Part shown: positions 18,830-31,562 of the stretch, in pieces
Layout: each line of letters starts with the position of its first letter
How positions within the stretch are numbered: the stretch's first letter is position 1
NCBI GenBank assembly: GCA_027487685.1
Contig: JAIYDC010000019.1
Span: 1-64,000, forward strand
DNA length: 64,000 nt
Direction of reading: 5' to 3'
DNA from: Pseudomonadota bacterium
Lineage (GTDB): Bacteria; Bdellovibrionota; Bacteriovoracia; Bacteriovoracales; Bacteriovoracaceae
Notes under the pieces: generated by a model
Databases searched by the model: none
The model's input: the letters and a program-made list of their open reading frames with translations, nothing else
What the model was told of the DNA's origin: nothing
Program-made: the position numbers and the translations under genes

Positions 18830-21319
18830 ATGGGTAATCTGATAAATCCATCATCTAGATTTAAAGCCGAACATTCTTCATTTAAAAATCCAATTAAAAT
18901 TCCGGCCCTGCTTACCGCTTTTGTCATAGGACTATCTCTATTTCAAAACGTTGCCATTGCTTCCACTCCGATTAATCAAGTAACCACATTAAGGAATGCT
19001 ACACTCCGAGCATTACTTGAGCCAGAACAGTGTCGGGCAGCCTTTTCGGGGGTCTCAGCTAACATACTACGCGGACGCGGAAATGTTGTTCTTGATACAT
19101 TTAAGTTGGCTCCAGACCTAGACCTCTCAAAAAACAGCTCGGTTCCCTCTTTGGGATACACAGTTAGCCAGGTATCCCTGCAGTCCCTTCAGCCTATGGT
19201 CTCTCTCGATAGGACCGAATCTATAAAGGCAACATTGGTCTTTTCAGGCACCCGGAGAAATGGCAGTCAGATTACATTTAGAATTGGAGAATTTAAATTC
19301 GACTTCGCTTCAAATAAGGCATTTGTTGGCTGTCAGCCCCGAGGTTACGTCGTTTTTGGTTTAAAGAATGTACTCGAGGCTCGGGCCGCTATTGAAATAT
19401 CTCGATCAAGAGAGGCGATATTCGATTATAATAGGATTGTTGCTGATGCGATTGATCGCAGCAAGAAACCTTCGTTTGCCATTGAAGTTCCTGCCCGTGG
19501 AAATATCGGCTGGGCAGTTATGGATAGGATCTATTCCTATGGAACTACACATTTGCTTAAACAACACTCAGAATTGGTTACAGGAGAATTGTTAACGAGG
19601 GTAGACGATTACAGTGCAAGAGTTAGAGAGGAACTGTTAACAGTTGCTAATGGATCTTCAGCTGCAAATACTCCGAGAGATGTTAATTTTCAAGATTGGT
19701 CACAAAAAGGGTTGCTAGAGAATGCCCAAATTGCACTCGGAGTGGCCGCTGGCCTGGATTGGTACCGTGAATCACTTTCCCCCGATGAACGACTTCAGAT
19801 CAGAGCCGCGCTTATCCGGAAGTCATTCAATATATTCTACGGAAATTTTCAATCTGAACGAGGAGATAAGCCTACAACATTTGCTGGTCCGTATAATGCG
19901 TGGTGGATTCGGTCCAGAAGCAACTGGAATCTGGTAAATAACGGATCTATGCTGGTCATGTTGAAGGTTCTAGCTTTCGAAGTTAACCCAAGAAGTGAAC
20001 CTGAACTTGCGACGCAGATACAGAATCTATTCCATTGGATCACGCGCGAGTGGAAGAGCGGTGAGCCGTCCTCACTTTCATTCGGGATCCACATGCTATC
20101 TAATGGTGATGGAGGCTCATATGAGGGACCAAATTACTGGAACTATGCTATGCTTAACTTTGCTGCGATTATGGGGTCCTATTCTCTAAGTGAGGTTAAT
20201 TTAGGAACCGTCTTATCAAGAGAACATTTTTTGGCCGCGGCTAGATTTGCGCTTGCGATGCGAAATTCAAACGCAATTCAGTTTAATTACTCAGATACTG
20301 GTGAAAGAGCATCCAGTTATCCCCCGGTTTATATGCTTGGCAGACTTTCTCAGAATGCACAAGTTACTCTTGCTGAACTACGCTTGCAGAGAATAGTTAC
20401 TGCGCTTGATTCTAGAGTGAGTCTCGAGGACGCATTGGATTTATTTTGGCGCCGAGATGAAGATTTGAGAACTAATCCTTCTTCTACGTTACTACCGCAA
20501 GTTGCAATTTTCCCAAATACCTCTGTTGGCCGAGTGTCCGAAACATCTTCACAGTCTAATATGTATCTTGGCTTCAAAGGCGGGACCTCCGATTCACAAC
20601 ACCGACAGTCAGAGAATGGCAGCTTCGTGTTTGATGCCAATGGTGTGAGATTTGCCTCCGATTTAGGTCCTGATAGTTATTCTCTTCCAAATTATGGAGC
20701 TTGGTCAATCTACTACCGGCAGAGGGCGGAAGGGAACAACTGTTTGTCAGTAAATGGAGAGCTTCAAACGAATAGGGCAAACAGCACAATTGGTTTTTCA
20801 GAATCTGATGGTATCGTCAACACTTGGACCAACTTGCAAACTGCGTACCAAAACTCTACCGGGATATTTGGAAGAAATCTAAGGAATTATTTTAGGCACT
20901 TTTTCACCAATACCCGCCCAGGTCAGGCACAGCTAACAGTCCAGGACGAATTCACTCTTGCACCTACTAGTGAAACATTGCCAATTGTAACTTGGAATAT
21001 GCATACTCAGTCAAATGTAGTAATCGAAGCTTCAAAAGCTCCCCAAGCTCAAAATAGATTAATTCTCCAACATTCCTCAGGAAAACGGATATCCGTTGTT
21101 GTCGATCTACAGAATGCAAAACTTGTGAGCATGGAATTAGTTTCGCCGCCTGCTATGAACTCACCCGGGCTTACAATCAGGGGCGTTACCTATTTACAAG
21201 GTTCCGGTCCTCTCCGCTCCGATATGAAAGTCCTCCGAATTAGAGTCCAACCCAACAATATGGGCCAACCAAATGTAATCAGGGTGAATTTGACGCCGGC
21301 AAACTCAGCTCTCTATTGA
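18830..21319 (+). CDS. Heparinase II/III-like polysaccharide lyase, secreted
   Basis: The 829-residue product has a long n-region followed by a hydrophobic segment (~24-44, LLTAFVIGLSLFQNVAIAS), so export is likely. An all-helical toroid domain carries NWNLVNNGSML (Asn365 region) and GGSYEGPNYWNYA (Tyr431 region), both typical of alginate/heparin lyases. It is followed by a beta-sandwich domain with DSQHRQSENGSFVFDANGVRFASDLG (His591), the heparinase II/III core. It probably cleaves a uronate-containing polysaccharide by beta-elimination. It stands alone, with no sugar transporter or sulfatase nearby, so the product may simply be released. A terminator with a long loop follows. Confidence 0.8.
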   Translation: MGNLINPSSRFKAEHSSFKNPIKIPALLTAFVIGLSLFQNVAIASTPINQVTTLRNATLRALLEPEQCRAAFSGVSANILRGRGNVVLDTFKLAPDLDLSKNSSVPSLGYTVSQVSLQSLQPMVSLDRTESIKATLVFSGTRRNGSQITFRIGEFKFDFASNKAFVGCQPRGYVVFGLKNVLEARAAIEISRSREAIFDYNRIVADAIDRSKKPSFAIEVPARGNIGWAVMDRIYSYGTTHLLKQHSELVTGELLTRVDDYSARVREELLTVANGSSAANTPRDVNFQDWSQKGLLENAQIALGVAAGLDWYRESLSPDERLQIRAALIRKSFNIFYGNFQSERGDKPTTFAGPYNAWWIRSRSNWNLVNNGSMLVMLKVLAFEVNPRSEPELATQIQNLFHWITREWKSGEPSSLSFGIHMLSNGDGGSYEGPNYWNYAMLNFAAIMGSYSLSEVNLGTVLSREHFLAAARFALAMRNSNAIQFNYSDTGERASSYPPVYMLGRLSQNAQVTLAELRLQRIVTALDSRVSLEDALDLFWRRDEDLRTNPSSTLLPQVAIFPNTSVGRVSETSSQSNMYLGFKGGTSDSQHRQSENGSFVFDANGVRFASDLGPDSYSLPNYGAWSIYYRQRAEGNNCLSVNGELQTNRANSTIGFSESDGIVNTWTNLQTAYQNSTGIFGRNLRNYFRHFFTNTRPGQAQLTVQDEFTLAPTSETLPIVTWNMHTQSNVVIEASKAPQAQNRLILQHSSGKRISVVVDLQNAKLVSMELVSPPAMNSPGLTIRGVTYLQGSGPLRSDMKVLRIRVQPNNMGQPNVIRVNLTPANSALY

Positions 21320-22914: not shown

Positions 22915-23904
22915 CTATTTAGGACGAAGCTCGTGTCGGAAGAAGATTCCTTCGTCTCCGAACTCGGACGCCAAGAACTCGGACGTCGTCACGAGGTCGC
23001 CGACGTGCTCAGAGTCCTTCAAGAAGGTTTCAACGTCGCTCGGCGCGTATTGCGAATAGTCGTAGGAACGGTGCTTCTCCGAAAGAATGCGCACTTGATA
23101 GATCGTTCTCCCAGCAGGGATGCTGAGTAGATCCTCGCGTACATCGTGCTCCTCCGAGGAAAACTTTAGCTCCGGATGTGGGACGAAGAAGATCTGGCGC
23201 GGAGAAACGGCGGCCTCTGGCCTTTTGCCTTGGGCGTCCACCGAGGCCATGTCATTCACCGCAAGTTCCTCTGGGTATCCAGAAACGCGACGGAAAATTT
23301 TGTGAACGAGCTTTTGCCCAAGGCCCGCACTTATGGGAACGATGTTCGACATCGGGTGCTTGAAGAAATTGAAGTCTTTTTCCTGGCCTTCGAGGGAAAC
23401 AAGTGCGGAAACGTTAGCACTGGGTGCCCCATCTCGGAGAACCTTAAGTGCCAATCCCGGAGCGACTGGTCTTGATCCGACCGGTCTATAGGTCAGAGAC
23501 AGGCGCACAAGTGCGCACTCCGCTCCCTGAAAGATGCCCGTGTACTTTGAACTTATAGGGACAAGCTTAACCTTTGCCAAGACGCCGCGATGGTGGAGGT
23601 ATTTCTTCCAGCCTGGAGGCGAGAAGTCGGAATGCAAGCTTCCTTTCTTGTCGATCTCTTGAACGCTCATGCCAAGGAGCTGCGGAAACCCGAACTTACT
23701 GTGGGGGGGAAGCTCCCGGTGTACGCTCGCCACGGCTTTCTCCCAAAGAACCTCTTGCTTTTCGCAGCCTCGGAGCTCTTCGTAGTTCGCGGGGATGGAC
23801 GCCGGTGAACGAGGTTCACCGTTTTGGGTCTCGTTGAAGAGCATCGCGGCGGTCGCCAAGAGGACTACTCCAGCTGAAAGACCAAGGTAAGTTTTCTTAT
23901 TCAA
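22915..23904 (-). CDS. Exported catalase-like heme-domain protein
   Basis: The 329-residue product starts at TTG (23904) behind a good GGAGG, with an N-terminal membrane anchor/signal (~5-24). The core resembles the catalase/allene-oxide-synthase superfamily: KYLHHRGVLAKVKLVP fits the distal-His strand (compare VVHAKGAG in catalases), FQGAECALVRLSLTYRPVG, PGLALKVLRDGAPSANVSAL, and GQEKDFNFFKHPMSN (the catalase-type FF-x-P/N region). A clear proximal heme Tyr motif was not found, so catalytic type is uncertain. It is next to an alpha-dioxygenase-like heme enzyme and an Mpo1-like protein, which favours a role on lipid hydroperoxides over H2O2. Confidence 0.55.
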   Translation of the reverse strand: MNKKTYLGLSAGVVLLATAAMLFNETQNGEPRSPASIPANYEELRGCEKQEVLWEKAVASVHRELPPHSKFGFPQLLGMSVQEIDKKGSLHSDFSPPGWKKYLHHRGVLAKVKLVPISSKYTGIFQGAECALVRLSLTYRPVGSRPVAPGLALKVLRDGAPSANVSALVSLEGQEKDFNFFKHPMSNIVPISAGLGQKLVHKIFRRVSGYPEELAVNDMASVDAQGKRPEAAVSPRQIFFVPHPELKFSSEEHDVREDLLSIPAGRTIYQVRILSEKHRSYDYSQYAPSDVETFLKDSEHVGDLVTTSEFLASEFGDEGIFFRHELRPK

Positions 23905-24003
23905 GCTTCCTCCGCACCAAAAAGACCGGCAAAAACGATAAGTTAATTAAATGATACCTAGGCCGTAAACCATATGGGGAAAAAACTTCGTGCCTACTCC
24001 CAG

Positions 24004-24432
24004 CTAGGCTTTGGAGATCAACCTAGATTTGAACTTCGCCATGATCCATGCGGGTCCAACCAAAAGAAACAAGAGGTTCTGAAGGAAAGATGGGTTTTTA
24101 CCCTCGACTTTATGGCCCCAGAACTGACCGATCCACGCCAGGACAAAGAGAAGAATGTTTGTTTTCAGGAAATGCTCAAAAGGGGCAAAAATGTAGCAGG
24201 TGCTAAGAGAAATTAAGATCAGTATGATCATGAGGGAGAAATAAGAGCGAAGAGATCGGTAATAGAAGATCAAAGATAACCCGCTCAACCCCACCGCCAG
24301 GAACGGGGAAATGGAATAGAAAAAGGCCACTACATTGAAGAATATGATGGGTACACAAATATAATGCACGAGTTGATTGGTCTTATTTTGATGGGAAGAG
24401 GAATAGGTCAAAATCAAGTCATTCTCACTCAT
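24004..24432 (-). CDS. DUF962/Mpo1-like membrane protein
   Basis: The start is the ATG at 24432 with GGAG six bases ahead. The 142-residue product has about four membrane segments and the family landmarks: Y-S-S-S-H-Q-N-K-T-N-Q-x-x-H near the N-terminus (His14, His23), His87, and WIGQFWGHKVEGKNPSF (His107) followed by a terminal segment LLVGPAWIMAKF. Yeast Mpo1, of this family, is an Fe-dependent dioxygenase that converts 2-hydroxy fatty acids to aldehydes one carbon shorter; these His residues would be the metal ligands. It is divergent from the alpha-dioxygenase-like gene with only ~75 bases between start codons. Confidence 0.82.
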   Translation of the reverse strand: MSENDLILTYSSSHQNKTNQLVHYICVPIIFFNVVAFFYSISPFLAVGLSGLSLIFYYRSLRSYFSLMIILILISLSTCYIFAPFEHFLKTNILLFVLAWIGQFWGHKVEGKNPSFLQNLLFLLVGPAWIMAKFKSRLISKA

Positions 24433-24508
24433 TTTTTTCTCCAACGGTTTTCATTTATCACGTTATTATAGAAGAAATGTAATTTTGATCGAAGTAAAAG
24501 GAATTTAC

Positions 24509-26599
24509 ATGAAAAAAATTATCTCTGTTGGGGCCGTAGCTACCGGACTTTTGGTCGTGTCTTGCGCATTAAATAAGACCAAACCGGTTACGACGGCAAA
24601 AAATCATCAAACTGCTGACCGAATGCCTACTTCAGAGGATGCTGAAGAATCTCCCTGGACGACCTGGTCCAGGAGAGGAACCGTCGGTGGCCTCTACGTC
24701 CTAAAGGGGATCCGAGAGAACCTTCTGAAAATCAGCCTTCACGACCCACACATCGACTACTCGAGTTACGCTCCTGTCGACTGCTCAAAGCAGAATACCA
24801 GGTTTAGAAGCGCCGATGGGACTTGTAACAATCTTGCCAATCCAAACGTGGGTGCCGCTGGAGTAGCCTTCGGCCGTAACGTAGCTCCGGAGTTCATCGA
24901 CCAAGATGCCGAAGAAAAATTGATGACTCCAAACCCTGCTGAGATCTCAAAAGAATTTTTCACAAGAGATGAGTATAAAGAAGTCCCATTTTTGAATATG
25001 CTCGCTGCAAGCTGGATTCAATTCATGAATCACGACTGGCTTACGCATGGTCCGAACGCAACGGAGAATCCACACCGCGTACCAATGCCCGATGGATCAG
25101 AGGTCACCGTAGATCGTACGAAAGAAACCGTGACAAGATCTGGGGTTAAAGGGACCTTCAGTAAAGTGACGAACAACGATGTGACGCACTGGTGGGACGG
25201 TTCCCAGATTTACGGCAGCAACCAGGCCGAGCAGAATAGTCTACGATCCTTTGAAAAAGGGAAGATGATCACTGTTATAGAAAACGGAAGAGAGCTCCTC
25301 CCGAAGGGAACTGACCTGAATCCGGCGAACAATCGATTGAATCACGGCCACGAGCTCACTGGGTTTCGAGATAACTGGTGGGTTGGCCTTAGTATGCTCC
25401 ACCACCTCTTCGTTAAAGAGCACAACGCGATCGCTGAAATGCTCATCAAGAGGCACGTGACCTTTGACGAGGGGTCGAAGAAATGGATCTGGAACCAAGC
25501 GGGTCTTTTAAACAGAATAGGTAACGCTGTCAGGACAAACGACAGAGATGTCTTTTCTTTCACTGACAAACAGCTCGATGAGCACGTGTTCCAGACCGCT
25601 CGCTTGATCAACGCTGCAGTCATGGCGAAGATCCACACCGTCGAATGGACTCCAGCGATTCTCCCGAACAAAGTTTTGAAGAAGGCGATGTACACCAACT
25701 GGTACGGCCTTGCGAACCCGCAGACGTGGTCAAAATTGATTAAGAATATCCCTGGATTTAACAAAGTTAAATGGTTCGAGGATCTAAATACCGGGTATAC
25801 CATCGGCGGGATCGTCGGTGATAGAACAAACGACTACGGTGTTCCCTACAGTATTACGGAAGAGTTCACTTCCGTGTACCGTCTTCACTCCCTCCTGCCT
25901 GAGAAGCTTTACTTCAAAAAGCTTGATAATCAGAACGAAGTCGAAGCCGTTCCATTCGGAGCGACTCGAAACGAGAAGACATACTCCATCATGGCGAACA
26001 ATGACTTAAAAGACTTGTTCTACTCATTCGGGACACAAAAGCCCGGCCAGCTTGTGCTTAACAACTTCCCTCAGTTCATGCAGAAGTTAACCATCCCGGG
26101 TCACGGCGTGATGGACCTTGCGATGGTTGACATCATTCGAGACCGCGAGAGAGGTGTTCCTCGCTACAATCAATTCCGGAGAGGAATTGGTCTTAGACCG
26201 ATCCGCAAGTACGCTGACTTTTTCCTTGATGGAAAGGCCAAGGATGCACGCCAAGAGGCGATTCTGGCCAAGTTCAACAGCGTTTACGGGAAAGATGCCC
26301 AGGGGAATGATAATGTCGAAGACGTAGACCTCCTAGTAGGAACATCTGCTGAAGAAGTACGCCCACTAAACTTTGGCTTCGGCGAAACTCAATTCCACAT
26401 CTTCGTGCTGATGGCTTCAAGACGCTTAATGGCGGACAGATTCTACACAGCTAACTACCGCAAAGAGTACTACACTCAAGCGGGTCTGGATTGGATTGAC
26501 AACGAGGGCTACATGCACAAGGTCATAGTCCGTCACATGCCTGAACTAAAACCGAAATTAGAAGGTCTTGAAACTGCTTTCTATCCTTGGAAAAACTAA
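24509..26599 (+). CDS. Fatty-acid alpha-dioxygenase-like heme enzyme (animal peroxidase superfamily), lipoprotein
   Basis: The start is taken at the ATG at 24509 (AAAAGG seven bases upstream), which gives the lipoprotein signal KKIISVGAVATGLLVVSC. The 696-residue product follows plant alpha-dioxygenases along its length: RFRSADGTCNNLANPNVG...FGRNVAPE, AASWIQFMNHDWLTHG (distal heme His175), THWWDGSQIYG, and EEFTSVYRLHSLLP with the catalytic Tyr457 and proximal His460 in the Y-R-x-H arrangement of alpha-DOX. Such enzymes add O2 to the alpha carbon of fatty acids, giving 2-hydroperoxy acids. Membrane anchoring on the periplasmic side suggests action on exogenous or prey lipids. A terminator follows. 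Confidence 0.85.
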   Translation: MKKIISVGAVATGLLVVSCALNKTKPVTTAKNHQTADRMPTSEDAEESPWTTWSRRGTVGGLYVLKGIRENLLKISLHDPHIDYSSYAPVDCSKQNTRFRSADGTCNNLANPNVGAAGVAFGRNVAPEFIDQDAEEKLMTPNPAEISKEFFTRDEYKEVPFLNMLAASWIQFMNHDWLTHGPNATENPHRVPMPDGSEVTVDRTKETVTRSGVKGTFSKVTNNDVTHWWDGSQIYGSNQAEQNSLRSFEKGKMITVIENGRELLPKGTDLNPANNRLNHGHELTGFRDNWWVGLSMLHHLFVKEHNAIAEMLIKRHVTFDEGSKKWIWNQAGLLNRIGNAVRTNDRDVFSFTDKQLDEHVFQTARLINAAVMAKIHTVEWTPAILPNKVLKKAMYTNWYGLANPQTWSKLIKNIPGFNKVKWFEDLNTGYTIGGIVGDRTNDYGVPYSITEEFTSVYRLHSLLPEKLYFKKLDNQNEVEAVPFGATRNEKTYSIMANNDLKDLFYSFGTQKPGQLVLNNFPQFMQKLTIPGHGVMDLAMVDIIRDRERGVPRYNQFRRGIGLRPIRKYADFFLDGKAKDARQEAILAKFNSVYGKDAQGNDNVEDVDLLVGTSAEEVRPLNFGFGETQFHIFVLMASRRLMADRFYTANYRKEYYTQAGLDWIDNEGYMHKVIVRHMPELKPKLEGLETAFYPWKN

Positions 26600-26672: not shown

Positions 26673-27440
26673 ATGAATCTCACTTGGTTAGGGACAGCAG
26701 GCTTCATCGTTAAGAGTCCGGAGGGCGAGATTGCCTTTGATCCTTTCCTCTCCCGCGGCTCAGGTGCCAAATCCCCTTTCACTCCTCAATCATTCCAGAA
26801 CACTCGCGCGCTTTTCGTCGGGCACGGCCATTTCGACCATACCTTTGATGTCCCTGAAATCGTCGCTGGATCTGATTTAAAAGTGTTTGCACCAGGGCTC
26901 ACGGGTCAGGTCCTCAGGCTACGCGGAGTACCCGCCTTGCGCCTCATCAAGGCCTCCAATGATGAAACTCTCTTTAAACCATATAAGATGCGTGCTTTTC
27001 ACAGCTCTCATTCAAAATTCGACCTCCCCCTGGTCTTAAGCACTATGAAAAGGTGTGGGGTTAAAGGATGCCTGGAGGCCTGCCATCTCGGACTCGCCTA
27101 CCCCAAGGGGCTGGTCCAAACCTACTTCTTTGAACTGAAAGGAAAGAAAGTGCTTTTCATCAGCTCAGCGGGTTGCACCAACCAGGAGCTTGAAACCTAC
27201 CGGAAGCTCGAAGTGGACTATCTCCTGGCCCCACTTCAAGGGCACACTTCAATCCAGCAAATCGCTGCCCGGATGACCTCGATCATCAATCCTAAGGTTG
27301 TTATACCTCACCATCACGATGACTTCTTCCCCCCTCTGTCCCAGAGCATTTCTGTCGAAGGGTATAAAGAACAGCTCACTTCACATGGGTTCCAAGGAAA
27401 GGTGCTCGAGATTCCTCTCTTTGACGACGCCCAAATCTAA
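26673..27440 (+). CDS. Metallo-beta-lactamase-fold hydrolase (UlaG/NAPE-PLD-like)
   Basis: The 255-residue cytosolic protein has the MBL zinc motif GHGHFDHTFD (~50-59) and later ligands in the HSSHSKFD, SSAGCTN and PHHHDDF regions. The compact start NLTWLGTAGFIV and the DPF motif are typical of UlaG/RomA or N-acylphosphatidylethanolamine phospholipase D relatives. No Shine-Dalgarno is seen before the ATG. A lipid role would fit the neighbouring alpha-dioxygenase gene but is only inference. Confidence 0.75.
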   Translation: MNLTWLGTAGFIVKSPEGEIAFDPFLSRGSGAKSPFTPQSFQNTRALFVGHGHFDHTFDVPEIVAGSDLKVFAPGLTGQVLRLRGVPALRLIKASNDETLFKPYKMRAFHSSHSKFDLPLVLSTMKRCGVKGCLEACHLGLAYPKGLVQTYFFELKGKKVLFISSAGCTNQELETYRKLEVDYLLAPLQGHTSIQQIAARMTSIINPKVVIPHHHDDFFPPLSQSISVEGYKEQLTSHGFQGKVLEIPLFDDAQI

Positions 27441-27502: not shown

Positions 27503-28537
27503 TTATCTGCTGCCTTCTCCGTTTTCTGGGTGCTCATAATACATGAGAAAGTCATCAGGATTTTCAGGATTAATCAAGGCAAGCTCTACGACATCCTGAT
27601 TTAAGGATTTCGATGCATCAAAAATGTCGATGAAGAGTCCAATTCTTCCCTGAACGATTTCCTTAGTCTTCTCATCCCCGGTGCCTGACTGGAACAAGAA
27701 CATACCATCTCGTGGCTCCGTGGCGGTGAAATGACCTTGTAAGAAGGCAGAAAGTGGATTGGTGAACATCTTGCTGCGTTTATCAGTGGAGAGGTGGGAC
27801 ATATTTGGATTGAGCTTAAATTCCGCGTGGTCCTTGCCTTCCACTTGTGAGAGGTCCAAAACGACATCGTCTACTTTGTGGTACTGGGACAGATAGGGGC
27901 CGGGCAAATAGTTCTTTCTCCAAGTAGATTCGAGCTTCGCCTTTTCATAGGCCAACTTGGCCGTGCCGTACTGAATGCCATTAGATTTATTGTCATCCTT
28001 CTTTGGGAAGAAAATCTCCTCTGGCCCATCTTCTCTGACACTGCTTATCGTCGCTCCTTCTAAGGGATGCTTCAGATTATCGTCAGTTGAGAGCGTGAGC
28101 ACCCGAGGAGTCCCTACTCTTTTCGCTTCAATGCGGTCCTCGACAACACTCAGAGGCCACATGTTATAAGAACCTGCCACTTCGCCAGGCACAACCTCGT
28201 AGGCGGAGATGTTGCTGGTGATGTGCTTCAGGTACCCTGTACGGTTAGCAATGAACGGAAGTTTGTTAGAGGCGATGTAGCTTGGTGCCATTTTCAAGAG
28301 GTCCACGTACTCGAGTAAAATACCATGGTACTTTTCAGGCTCCCCTTCTACAGCTTGGAGGTAGATCCGAATCGCAGGTTTATTTGGCCCACGGCGACCA
28401 GGTTTATACTGAGCAACCCCCAAGTAAGTGCCGTTGAGGTCTCGACTGATCGAGGCTATCTTCCTTGAATCATTTTTAGTCGTACTTGCGCAAGAGACGA
28501 TGAAGAACAGGGAGAGGTAGAAAGGAATTCGTATCAT
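27503..28537 (-). CDS. Hypothetical lipoprotein
   Basis: The start is chosen at the ATG at 28537 (GGAG six bases ahead), which places the lipoprotein signal IRIPFYLSLFFIVSC at the N-terminus; an upstream in-frame start at 28564 would add nine residues. The 344-residue mature region is polar, without recognised domains, and contains segments such as LNGTYLGVAQYKPGRRGPNKPAIRIYL that suggest a beta-rich fold. I cannot assign a function. A clear terminator follows the gene. Confidence 0.65.
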   Translation of the reverse strand: MIRIPFYLSLFFIVSCASTTKNDSRKIASISRDLNGTYLGVAQYKPGRRGPNKPAIRIYLQAVEGEPEKYHGILLEYVDLLKMAPSYIASNKLPFIANRTGYLKHITSNISAYEVVPGEVAGSYNMWPLSVVEDRIEAKRVGTPRVLTLSTDDNLKHPLEGATISSVREDGPEEIFFPKKDDNKSNGIQYGTAKLAYEKAKLESTWRKNYLPGPYLSQYHKVDDVVLDLSQVEGKDHAEFKLNPNMSHLSTDKRSKMFTNPLSAFLQGHFTATEPRDGMFLFQSGTGDEKTKEIVQGRIGLFIDIFDASKSLNQDVVELALINPENPDDFLMYYEHPENGEGSR

Positions 28538-28638: not shown

Positions 28639-29124
28639 TCAAGCACTTAGAGAGCAGATCCTCTTTAAGTTCAGATCGGATTCCATAAGGCGATCGAATT
28701 CGTCAGCTACTTTGAGAGGATCGTTACTTAAGTCAGTACCAAAGACCTTTGTAAGATTCTGCTGAAGGCTCAAGAAAACCTTATCTTGATCAGAAGCATT
28801 ACAACCATACAGGAAAGCAGCTGCGGCCAAATAGTCACCTTCTGCACGGACAATGTCTCCTTTCAGATAGGCTGCATTATCGGCAACGAAAAACTTTCGT
28901 TCATCCTCAGAAATCCCACCGATCATCCGGCAGTCACCGGTGGAAGTAAGAAACTGGGAAGAAAAGGTTGAGACAGAAAAGAGCTTGTAATAGATCTTCT
29001 CCGTCTTTCCCAAGCCTTTGCCGCCTCCGGGGAACACTTTGGCACATCTCTTTCCACTGAAGGCAAAGGAATCGTGAGCACTAAAATAAAACATGAGAAA
29101 AAACAGGATGAGGTAACGCTTCAT
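28639..29124 (-). CDS. Secreted DUF3015-like protein (paralogue 1)
   Basis: The 161-residue product has a signal peptide (KRYLILFFLMFYFSAHDSFAFS) and a DUF3015-like core: SSQFLTSTGDCRMIGG (the S-T/S-T-x-x-C signature), an ADNAAYLKGDIVRAEGDYLAAAAFLYGC stretch, and a final Cys in KRICSLSA. Three to four Cys are conserved with the neighbouring paralogue at 29144-29629, so disulfides are likely. The family is common in Bdellovibrio-type and gammaproteobacterial genomes; no function is established. The two copies are in tandem, 19 bases apart. Confidence 0.7.
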   Translation of the reverse strand: MKRYLILFFLMFYFSAHDSFAFSGKRCAKVFPGGGKGLGKTEKIYYKLFSVSTFSSQFLTSTGDCRMIGGISEDERKFFVADNAAYLKGDIVRAEGDYLAAAAFLYGCNASDQDKVFLSLQQNLTKVFGTDLSNDPLKVADEFDRLMESDLNLKRICSLSA

Positions 29125-29143
29125 ACATTCTCCACTTAAGTGA

Positions 29144-29629
29144 TCAAACGTCTGCTAAATTACAGAGCTGAAGGATTTCAGTATCTGACTGCATAATGGT
29201 GTGCAGTGCTTCTGAAGCTTTTAACGGGTAATGATCCAACTGTGCTCCAAAAATTTTGGTCACGTTTTTCTGGAGTCTCAAAGCGACGCTTCCAATGACC
29301 CCAGGTTCGCAGCCATAAAGAAAAGTCATGGCCGAGAGATAGTCTCCTTCTGCACGGACGATGTTGTTTCTTATATGACCTGCATTGTGAGCAATGAATT
29401 GCTTCTTCTCACCATCAGATACCCCGCCGATCATTTTGCAGCTACCGGTCGATGTAAAAAACTGCCCCGTCGAGGTCGTTGAGTAAAACAACCTCATAAA
29501 ACCCTGCTCGGCCTTTCCCATGTAGTTGGGGGGAACGAATAACTTAGCACAGCGAGATGCCTTGAAGGCATGGGCCATCTGAAGCGGCAGCAGGATCAGG
29601 AATAAAATGAAATAGTGTGATAACTTCAG
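29144..29629 (-). CDS. Secreted DUF3015-like protein (paralogue 2), apparent CTG start
   Basis: An ATG at 29578 would leave no signal peptide. The frame extends 17 codons upstream to a CTG at 29629 and gives a textbook signal peptide (KLSHYFILFLILLPLQMAHA, cleavage before F). AGGAGGG sits five bases before that CTG, and the resulting length, 161 aa, equals the paralogue downstream. No ATG, GTG or TTG is available at this place. The core FFTSTGSCKMIGGVSDGEKKQF and IVRAEGDYLSAMTFLYGC matches paralogue 1. Function unknown; secreted, probably disulfide-bonded. Confidence 0.7.
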   Translation of the reverse strand: MKLSHYFILFLILLPLQMAHAFKASRCAKLFVPPNYMGKAEQGFMRLFYSTTSTGQFFTSTGSCKMIGGVSDGEKKQFIAHNAGHIRNNIVRAEGDYLSAMTFLYGCEPGVIGSVALRLQKNVTKIFGAQLDHYPLKASEALHTIMQSDTEILQLCNLADV

Positions 29630-29738: not shown

Positions 29739-31562
29739 CTAAAAAAAGAAGTAGCTCGCGAGTTGAAATTCATGCTGACCACTTTCCGTGTAAATAAGAC
29801 TACTCGCCCCAACTCCATACTTGATGGTTGAAAAGCGGATTTCATTAGAAAGGAAGGACTCATTCTGACTTTCATCCCTTAGACCAAAGAAAGTATGACC
29901 TTTGAGATTAGAGGCCAATCGCAGATAGAATCCGATGTCTCCCCCCACCGTCGGCTTGAACTTATCATCCGAAGTGGAACGATAGACTGCCTCTAGGGTC
30001 GGCAGTAGGTAGGCAGTCATGCTGGAAAATTTTCTTGCAAGACCTAGTCCTCCGGAAAGGCCATGTTTTTGCCTCTCACTCCCCTGAAAATGATCCCGCC
30101 AGCCCCCGGCCCGGGCCTTCCATGAAAGAGCACTCTTCGATTCACTCATGTCTCGCAGGTTAAGCATGTTCACCAGTGAATACTCTTCGACCTGAAAACG
30201 ATGCCCATCACTGAGGCCAACAATGTTGAACACCTCGAGACTTGTGTCGGACAGATAGGATGTGTGGTTGTCCATAATGTCATGTAAAGCTCCACGGATG
30301 CCAAAAGTCGTCCAAGCTTCCCTGGCCCGATTCAAATATCCTAACTTAAGCCGACGAGAGCCATGCCCTTTGTGTGGTGCGCTTCCTAAGAGGTAGTCAT
30401 AATTGGGCTTAGGCGAGCGCAGCGGTATGCTGGCGCGAGCTAGCATGAGACGTTGCTGGAGCTTCAACGTCCGGACATCTTCTTCAAGGAGTTTCTTCTC
30501 TTGATCGATCTCGAGCTTCAGAAGGGCCGCATCTAGCAAGGCTGCTGCCTTCGACCTCTCATCTTGTGCGAATAGGTCTGGGTTCTCGATGACTCGTGGG
30601 AGGCTCTTTAGGTCTTTATCAGAGAGAGACTCACTTAAGTGCATAGAGACTCTCTCGGGTGACGGTCTAAAGCTCACAGATCTTATGAGACCTTCCTTCT
30701 CGATGACCTTGAGTGTATCCGACGGCAAGACGTAGAACCGCGAAAGCTGGGCCACGAGATTGAGTTCAGGCTTCGCGGCTTCAAGAACTGTGAGCATGTG
30801 GTAAGAGCAGTTCTCCGTCATAAAATAGTAATCAAAGTGATTCCGACCAAGCTCCCAGAGGTGATCCACCAAGAAATCGACTTCTTCCTGATTGAAGTTG
30901 AGCTGATAGCTCCAGAGATCCCTCATTTCGGAATTATTGTATTCGTGAACTTTTGCGTAGTACGGAATCGCGCGGAACTCTCCGGGAAACCCACCAGTGA
31001 GTCCTTTAAAAATGTAAGCAATGACTCCTGACGAACCGGTCTCCGCCGCGTAGCTTACGCCAGTGTCTATGAGCTCATGGGCCGGACTCGGCTCTTCGGT
31101 TTTCCCGAGCCGCATGAACGTGTGTCCAAAGCTGGAGGCCGGGTTAGAGAGAAAGTAACTGGAGAAAACGATGTAGACCGAGCGAGCAGAGACCTGCTTT
31201 CTGAACTCATCAAGTCGATGACACTTTGTCTTCTGCGGGGGGAGTGCAAACCCCGTTTTTCTTAGCCATCGGACCCGAGCAGGAAAACGGCAAAAGCTAT
31301 TCCTGTCCTCTTCATGATCTTGCTGTTCCAGAGAAAGAATAAGAGCGGCGAGTTCCTCCTCTGGGGAGTTTCTACCTCCTGGAGAGAGGAAGAAATCTTT
31401 GCCATCTGCCTGGGAAACATAAGCTCCAGGCCACTGCTTTTGATAATGGAGAAGCTTGAGCCATTGAGGGTCCCGCGAATGAACGCGGGCGCTGAGAGCT
31501 GAGGAACTAAAAAGCGCCAGGGTAATTAAAGCGCCGAATACTTTTCTGGTCATCGGTTCCAA
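29739..31562 (-). CDS. DUF4105 (Lnb N-terminal-like) exported protein
   Basis: The 607-residue product (604 from the second ATG) has a signal peptide (FGALITLALFSSSALSA). The central part carries the DUF4105 marks: SSYFLSNPASSFGHTFMRLG, VSYAAE, GLTGGFPGEFRAIPYYAKVHEYNNSEMRDLWSYQL and FMTENCSYHML, with a conserved His and an N-C-S-Y Cys that could form an active site like that of NlpC-type enzymes. The C-terminal ~230 residues look like outer-membrane strands and end in LASYFFF, so the protein may be membrane-inserted. Function in the family is unestablished. Confidence 0.8.
   Translation of the reverse strand: MEPMTRKVFGALITLALFSSSALSARVHSRDPQWLKLLHYQKQWPGAYVSQADGKDFFLSPGGRNSPEEELAALILSLEQQDHEEDRNSFCRFPARVRWLRKTGFALPPQKTKCHRLDEFRKQVSARSVYIVFSSYFLSNPASSFGHTFMRLGKTEEPSPAHELIDTGVSYAAETGSSGVIAYIFKGLTGGFPGEFRAIPYYAKVHEYNNSEMRDLWSYQLNFNQEEVDFLVDHLWELGRNHFDYYFMTENCSYHMLTVLEAAKPELNLVAQLSRFYVLPSDTLKVIEKEGLIRSVSFRPSPERVSMHLSESLSDKDLKSLPRVIENPDLFAQDERSKAAALLDAALLKLEIDQEKKLLEEDVRTLKLQQRLMLARASIPLRSPKPNYDYLLGSAPHKGHGSRRLKLGYLNRAREAWTTFGIRGALHDIMDNHTSYLSDTSLEVFNIVGLSDGHRFQVEEYSLVNMLNLRDMSESKSALSWKARAGGWRDHFQGSERQKHGLSGGLGLARKFSSMTAYLLPTLEAVYRSTSDDKFKPTVGGDIGFYLRLASNLKGHTFFGLRDESQNESFLSNEIRFSTIKYGVGASSLIYTESGQHEFQLASYFFF

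Follow-up and report, generated by a model that had tools for sequence, protein, structure and literature searches.

An alpha-dioxygenase gene linked to a catalase-fold protein and a lipoprotein in Bdellovibrionota: a candidate exported fatty-acid alpha-oxidation module

We analyzed a window of 64,000 nucleotides (positions 1-64,000 of contig JAIYDC010000019.1, assembly GCA_027487685.1) from a member of the Bacteriovoracaceae, with gene coordinates taken from a list of open reading frames (ORFs). The window encodes an alpha-dioxygenase homologue (hereafter DOX), which lies among genes for a predicted catalase-fold protein (CAT), an Mpo1-like membrane protein, a metallo-beta-lactamase-fold hydrolase (MBL) and a lipoprotein outside known families (LIP) (Table 1). 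We propose, with moderate confidence, that this locus is an exported fatty-acid alpha-oxidation module whose CAT handles the 2-hydroperoxide. An earlier interpretation made from the letters alone (the sequence-only reading) had proposed a three-gene module of DOX, the Mpo1-like protein and a catalase-like protein. All three genes were present in the ORF list, and the pairing of DOX with the catalase-fold protein held; however, the Mpo1-like protein was not a constant member, and MBL and LIP, which belong to the module, had been left out.

DOX matched PF03098 (An_peroxidase) with 339 bits over domain positions 1-523 of 530. Peroxidases too fall under PF03098, and this score alone would fit a peroxidase; the assignment was made because the PDB sequence matches separate the two groups. 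The best of these were rice alpha-dioxygenase (4kvj, 5.6e-87) and the Arabidopsis enzyme (4hhr, 2.5e-82), whereas the next match after the alpha-dioxygenase structures was lactoperoxidase (6e-17). Nine functional residues of the rice enzyme (H157, H311, T316, F375, Y379, H382, F549, F552 and R559) are listed in PMC8720084. Transferred by hand from the printed PDB alignment, where the PDB chain index runs 3 ahead of the rice numbering, they correspond to H183, H384, T389, F461, Y465, H468, F637, F640 and R647 of the DOX ORF, respectively. DOX therefore keeps the distal His (H183), the catalytic Tyr (Y465) and, three residues on, the proximal His (H468), together with the carboxylate-binding H384 and R647, T389, and the stacking Phe residues F461 and F640. 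None of the nine varies across a set of 20 diverse bacterial homologues that reaches down to 35% identity. The ORF begins at TTG 24485 and ends at 26599, but ATG 24509 is the likely start, which the numbering of the sequence-only reading fits (its His175, Tyr457 and His460 are H183, Y465 and H468 of the ORF).

Based on the PDB matches and the retained catalytic and carboxylate-binding residues, DOX belongs to the alpha-dioxygenase family, as had been supposed from the letters. We considered and rejected the idea that it is no fatty-acid dioxygenase but a heme peroxidase of the animal type. Membership of PF03098 would allow this, yet the E-value to alpha-dioxygenases beats that to lactoperoxidase by over 60 orders of magnitude, and the catalytic Tyr and the carboxylate-binding His/Arg pair are kept, so that a peroxidase is very improbable. 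DOX is very likely an active enzyme, predicted to convert fatty acids to 2-hydroperoxides; cyanobacterial alpha-dioxygenases have demonstrated activity on fatty acids (PMC8720084). DOX shares whole-length homology with the plant and cyanobacterial enzymes (OsaDOX 4kvj, Arabidopsis 4hhr, CalDOX and LepDOX), and the likeness extends to the catalytic Tyr, both heme His residues, the carboxylate His/Arg and the positioning Thr. Unlike them, it has a lipoprotein signal, is some tens of residues longer and lies in a genomic module with CAT, LIP and MBL. The signal is a lipobox, MKKIISVGAVATGLLVVSC, found by pattern check after ATG 24509, and CAT carries an N-terminal hydrophobic anchor or signal. 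The earlier claim that two components are exported or membrane-anchored is supported; MBL has no signal.

To survey the linkage of these genes, we searched for each of them across a sample of 368 Bdellovibrionota genomes. DOX was found in 39 genomes, LIP in 37 and CAT in 64, of which 38 belong to a close clade (E < 1e-38). DOX and close CAT were common to 35 genomes (Fisher 6e-41) and DOX and LIP to 34 (Fisher 4e-39), with all three in 34; both statistics ignore shared ancestry. The loci themselves are stronger evidence of linkage than these values. In 29 of the 39 genomes, representing 17 genera, no more than 5 kb separates CAT from DOX, and the order of the two genes varies between divergent, co-directional and overlapping. 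Conserved linkage in other genomes, on which the sequence-only reading had staked its own proposal, thus exists for DOX and CAT. Of the DOX loci, 22 contained LIP within the stretch fetched, including that of genome G163, where a LIP homologue is fused to the DOX N-terminus (fusion in L093/L066). MBL adjoins DOX in 15 of the 39 genomes and is also present in six CAT/LIP loci away from any DOX. Five genomes (G030, G033, G036, G052 and G067) have a CAT/LIP block, mostly with MBL, apart from DOX. We also observed a remnant of the module in G028 (contig C5:164869-165641), where a LIP fragment adjoins CAT sequence interrupted by four stop codons and no DOX was found.

By branching order alone in a FastTree phylogeny of DOX, the CAT-linked genes fell into three separated Bdellovibrionota lineages, interleaved with DOX genes without CAT; CAT linkage is thus present in each of three separate DOX lineages and, in addition, in the cyanobacterium Calothrix. 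The protein distances of DOX, CAT and LIP were correlated (Mantel r 0.54-0.70, against a null maximum of 0.35).

The CAT protein matched no family in Pfam, NCBIfam or PHROGs and no PDB entry by sequence or profile, and PF00199 was absent from all 16 members scanned. We therefore turned to its predicted structure, an AlphaFold2 model built on 16 homologues with a pLDDT (predicted local distance difference test) score of 81. In Foldseek, this model was closest in the PDB to the catalase-related proteins 3e4y (3e-4) and 3e4w (9e-4), followed by allene oxide synthase (0.011), and comparison with many catalases by VIA gave Z of about 10 over 186-207 residues. The predicted fold of CAT is accordingly that of a catalase, and the earlier label 'catalase-like' describes a real resemblance, through predicted fold rather than sequence family. 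At the sequence level, CAT gave a weak alignment to a mixed catalase and catalase-related profile (pairwise E 0.008), which sets its K101-x-x-H104, R134-x-S136 and PGLALK on the R-x-x-H, R-x-S and RGFAxK of catalases. A narrower alignment of CAT against four catalase-related proteins gave no profile-profile signal. A comparison with catalases alone, which drew on three sequences only, gave no sensible alignment. Among 62 CAT homologues, D93, H104, G123, R134, K154, F181, R256, S313, D317 and H324 are near or fully invariant, and conservation on the distal side is high (H104 62/62, R134 62/62, S136 60/62, N164 57/62).

Although the distal residues are kept, the proximal RxxxY heme-ligand helix is not present in CAT. 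In the family alignment, CAT stops at ...FFRHQ, before that segment, whereas true catalase-related proteins run on into a conserved segment, for example FNPWHAHPDNRPLGQINRIRALVY, that holds the RxxxY ligand. CAT is therefore not an ordinary heme catalase and lies outside the heme catalases on the tested features, and it should not be presumed to work by ordinary catalase or peroxidase chemistry. In this respect, the earlier suggestion of a catalase-like step is not supported as it stood. The C-terminal H324 is invariant and could replace the Tyr as heme ligand. In summary, CAT resembles the catalase-related hemoproteins (Mycobacterium avium 3e4w/3e4y and coral allene oxide synthase 1u5u) in predicted fold and in having the distal His, Arg-x-Ser and Asn in register, but it differs from them in having no sequence-level family match, an invariant C-terminal His in place of the proximal RxxxY, and an exported location. 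The source genome also encodes, elsewhere (G000 contig C101:23561-24703, L188), a catalase-related, lipoprotein-like protein that keeps RxxxY.

LIP, like CAT, matched no Pfam entry, and it was not found on the plasmids searched. Its model (pLDDT 73.5) weakly resembles a lipocalin- or calycin-like barrel (best Z 8.3, Foldseek E no better than 9e-3), a predicted similarity at the level of common fold arrangements on which we do not rely. MBL matched PF13483 (37.7 bits against a cut-off of 24) and PF12706 and has an HGHFDH metal motif. It is closest in the PDB to UPF0173 hydrolases (2e-8) such as TM_1162 (3x2y), with which it shares the metallo-beta-lactamase fold and the HxHxDH motif; unlike these known hydrolases, it is linked to DOX.

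The Mpo1-like protein is a genuine member of PF06127 (59.9 bits against a cut-off of 24), so that the earlier identification of the gene divergent from DOX as Mpo1/DUF962 was correct. Its gene and that of CAT lie head-to-tail, 99 bp apart, and are likely co-transcribed; MBL begins 73 bp 3' of DOX. PF06127 occurs in 214 of the 368 genomes but is linked to DOX in only six of the 39 loci (the window, G088, G096 and G101 (one genus), G163 and G195), in three arrangements. Given that about 0.12 such neighbors are expected by chance and that the probability of three or more is about 2.5e-4, the link is more than chance but optional. His18, His27 and His111 are invariant in the six linked copies and are candidate Fe binders by conservation. 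The protein resembles yeast Mpo1/DUF962 in its above-threshold PF06127 match and in being a membrane protein; unlike the yeast protein, it is longer, with an insert between the motifs. According to yeast work by the Kihara group, Mpo1 reportedly shortens 2-hydroxy acids by one carbon to give an acid, and not, as the sequence-only reading had it, an aldehyde.

We also examined the contexts of DOX and CAT in other bacteria. On plasmid pCAL6303.01 of Calothrix PCC 6303, a transposase gene separates DOX from a CAT homologue about 1.5 kb away, which has 41% identity to CAT of the window; genes for a GMC oxidoreductase and a patatin-like phospholipase come next. A gammaproteobacterial metagenome-assembled genome (MAG; L082:8439-13927) has DOX followed by two catalase-related proteins keeping RxxxY, the first of which has coral allene oxide synthase as its top PDB match (2.9e-5), and by a homologue of a DyP-like peroxidase gene of L075. 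This is an independent pairing of DOX with hydroperoxide-handling folds. In L075 itself, a Myxococcota MAG, the DyP-like gene also neighbors DOX, and L078 has a further homologue. In L079:2047-9435, a Mycobacterium MAG by title, a lipoxygenase-family gene and a guanylate-cyclase/AAA gene flank DOX, and homologues of both do so in L080:2087-9889, an Acidobacteria MAG by title. CAT was not found in the DOX-carrying genomes of Myxococcota, Mycobacterium, Acidobacteria and Gammaproteobacteria, nor were CAT, LIP, MBL or Mpo1 found near alphaproteobacterial plasmid DOX genes. Bacterial DOX repeatedly lies beside gene types that handle peroxides or oxidize fatty acids, which favors, but does not prove, a role for CAT as hydroperoxide partner. 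Plasmids of Phyllobacterium (L195) and Rhizobium phaseoli (L194) encode longer peroxidase-family proteins with the dioxygenase domain, beside genes for patatin-like phospholipase, thiamine-pyrophosphate or cytochrome c proteins. The patatin-like phospholipases near DOX in Calothrix and Phyllobacterium would suit a supply of free fatty acids. In addition, Pseudomonas veronii plasmids (L155/L156, 5878-6858) carry a CAT homologue (30% identity) 3' of a gene for an NAD(P)/FAD-dependent oxidoreductase, with no DOX within 6 kb.

How might such a module work? We infer its substrate, the chemistry and cofactor of CAT, what LIP and MBL contribute, and how one step feeds the next. The lipoprotein DOX would insert O2 at C2 of free fatty acids via a tyrosyl radical, giving 2-hydroperoxy acids. 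CAT, in the same compartment, would take the hydroperoxide and reduce or rearrange it, leaving less of it to decarboxylate spontaneously to the aldehyde with one carbon fewer. LIP may bind or present the lipid. Where an Mpo1-like protein is present, as here, it might trim the 2-hydroxy acid in the membrane to the acid one carbon shorter. Several observations weigh against this module. CAT is without the proximal Tyr region, so that its heme binding and hydroperoxide chemistry are putative. Two genomes (G053 and G057) hold CAT/LIP/MBL loci without DOX, LIP occurs without DOX in three genomes, and close CAT is missing from four DOX genomes. Most divergent CAT homologues are without DOX or any consistent partner, and their neighbors show no common theme. 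Finally, the co-occurrence statistics are uncorrected for shared ancestry.

The nature of CAT is where other explanations enter. One extension of the proposed module is that CAT is a new type of catalase-fold enzyme, with the distal pocket kept and the proximal Tyr helix replaced by a short C-terminal tail with an invariant His, and that it works with a dedicated lipoprotein to convert 2-hydroperoxy fatty acids as part of an extracytoplasmic alpha-oxidation pathway; we advance this only tentatively. Alternatively, CAT may be heme-free and non-catalytic, binding the fatty acid, hydroperoxide or aldehyde or scaffolding DOX, so that the output is the spontaneously formed aldehyde one carbon shorter. 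In relatives of allene oxide synthase, the fold has a lipid-sized cavity. This, together with the missing proximal Tyr region and the close DOX-CAT pairing, which suits a binding partner too, gives the heme-free explanation some weight. However, a distal His conserved in 62 of 62 homologues, with nearly invariant Arg, Ser and Asn in catalase register, would be unexpected if heme chemistry had been lost, and H324 could stand in for the Tyr as ligand; we therefore consider a heme-free CAT rather doubtful.

A different question is what the product is for. The module may make a reactive lipid (2-hydroperoxide, aldehyde or 2-hydroxy acid) for signaling, defense or prey attack, with CAT and LIP serving in self-protection or delivery rather than in catabolism. 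The exported location and the patchy distribution within genera (for example, in four genomes of genus g1) are consistent with this, and plant alpha-dioxygenase acts in the formation of defense oxylipins (PMC9305512). However, many Bdellovibrionota are without the module, which is therefore not needed for their lifestyle; such a function seems unlikely. Still less probable is the linear route first proposed, in which DOX, a catalase-like reduction and Mpo1 cleavage form one dedicated three-gene pathway. Although Mpo1 adjoins DOX here and in five other loci, beyond chance, it is unlinked in 33 of the 39 DOX loci, and LIP and MBL, which are outside that scheme, are linked more often.

Table 1. 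Features of the DOX locus in the 64,000-nucleotide window.
Feature	Position	Strand	Evidence
Alpha-dioxygenase homologue (DOX; heme fatty-acid 2-dioxygenase)	24509..26599	+	PF03098, PDB alpha-dioxygenase matches, residues, lipobox
DOX lipobox signal peptide MKKIISVGAVATGLLVVSC	24509..24565	+	Sequence, pattern check
Catalase-fold protein (CAT)	22915..23904	-	Predicted-fold match, conserved residues, linkage to DOX
Mpo1-like membrane protein, optional member	24004..24444	-	PF06127, linkage in 6/39 loci
UPF0173-type metallo-beta-lactamase-fold hydrolase (MBL)	26673..27440	+	PF13483/PF12706, PDB UPF0173 matches, HGHFDH
Lipoprotein outside known families (LIP), SC lipobox	27503..28537 (ORF to 28564; likely start 28537)	-	Co-occurrence, DOX fusion

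Other genes were also noted around the locus. Two adjoining DUF3015 genes lie at 28639-29578 on the minus strand, a tandem pair that is also kept in G088, and a gene for an Lnb N-terminal domain protein with DUF7840/DUF7843 lies at 29739-31562 on the same strand. On the plus strand, the product of 18830-21319 has a weak match to the heparinase II/III C-terminal domain, under the curated cut-off.

Bacterial alpha-dioxygenases are already known, and DOX adds a new one to their family. Our literature search found no report of a DOX-CAT-LIP module or of the CAT family, nothing relevant on alpha-dioxygenase with catalase-like gene clusters, and nothing linking alpha-dioxygenase with Bdellovibrio, which is not mentioned in the parts of the alpha-dioxygenase papers PMC8720084 and PMC9305512 used here; those parts also name no bacterial pathway partners for the enzyme. 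As far as this search shows, the conserved partnership of DOX with CAT and LIP is undescribed. The finding is real and broader than the sequence-only reading described, and the chemistry of CAT is a testable question. If the model is right, CAT would be a naturally occurring catalase fold that lacks the heme-ligand segment normally present. Given that alpha-dioxygenases have been characterized mainly in plants, the conserved partners, the CAT family and LIP, make the role of the bacterial enzyme testable. In this relative of predatory bacteria, the module suggests a little-known bacterial route of lipid oxidation outside the cytoplasm.

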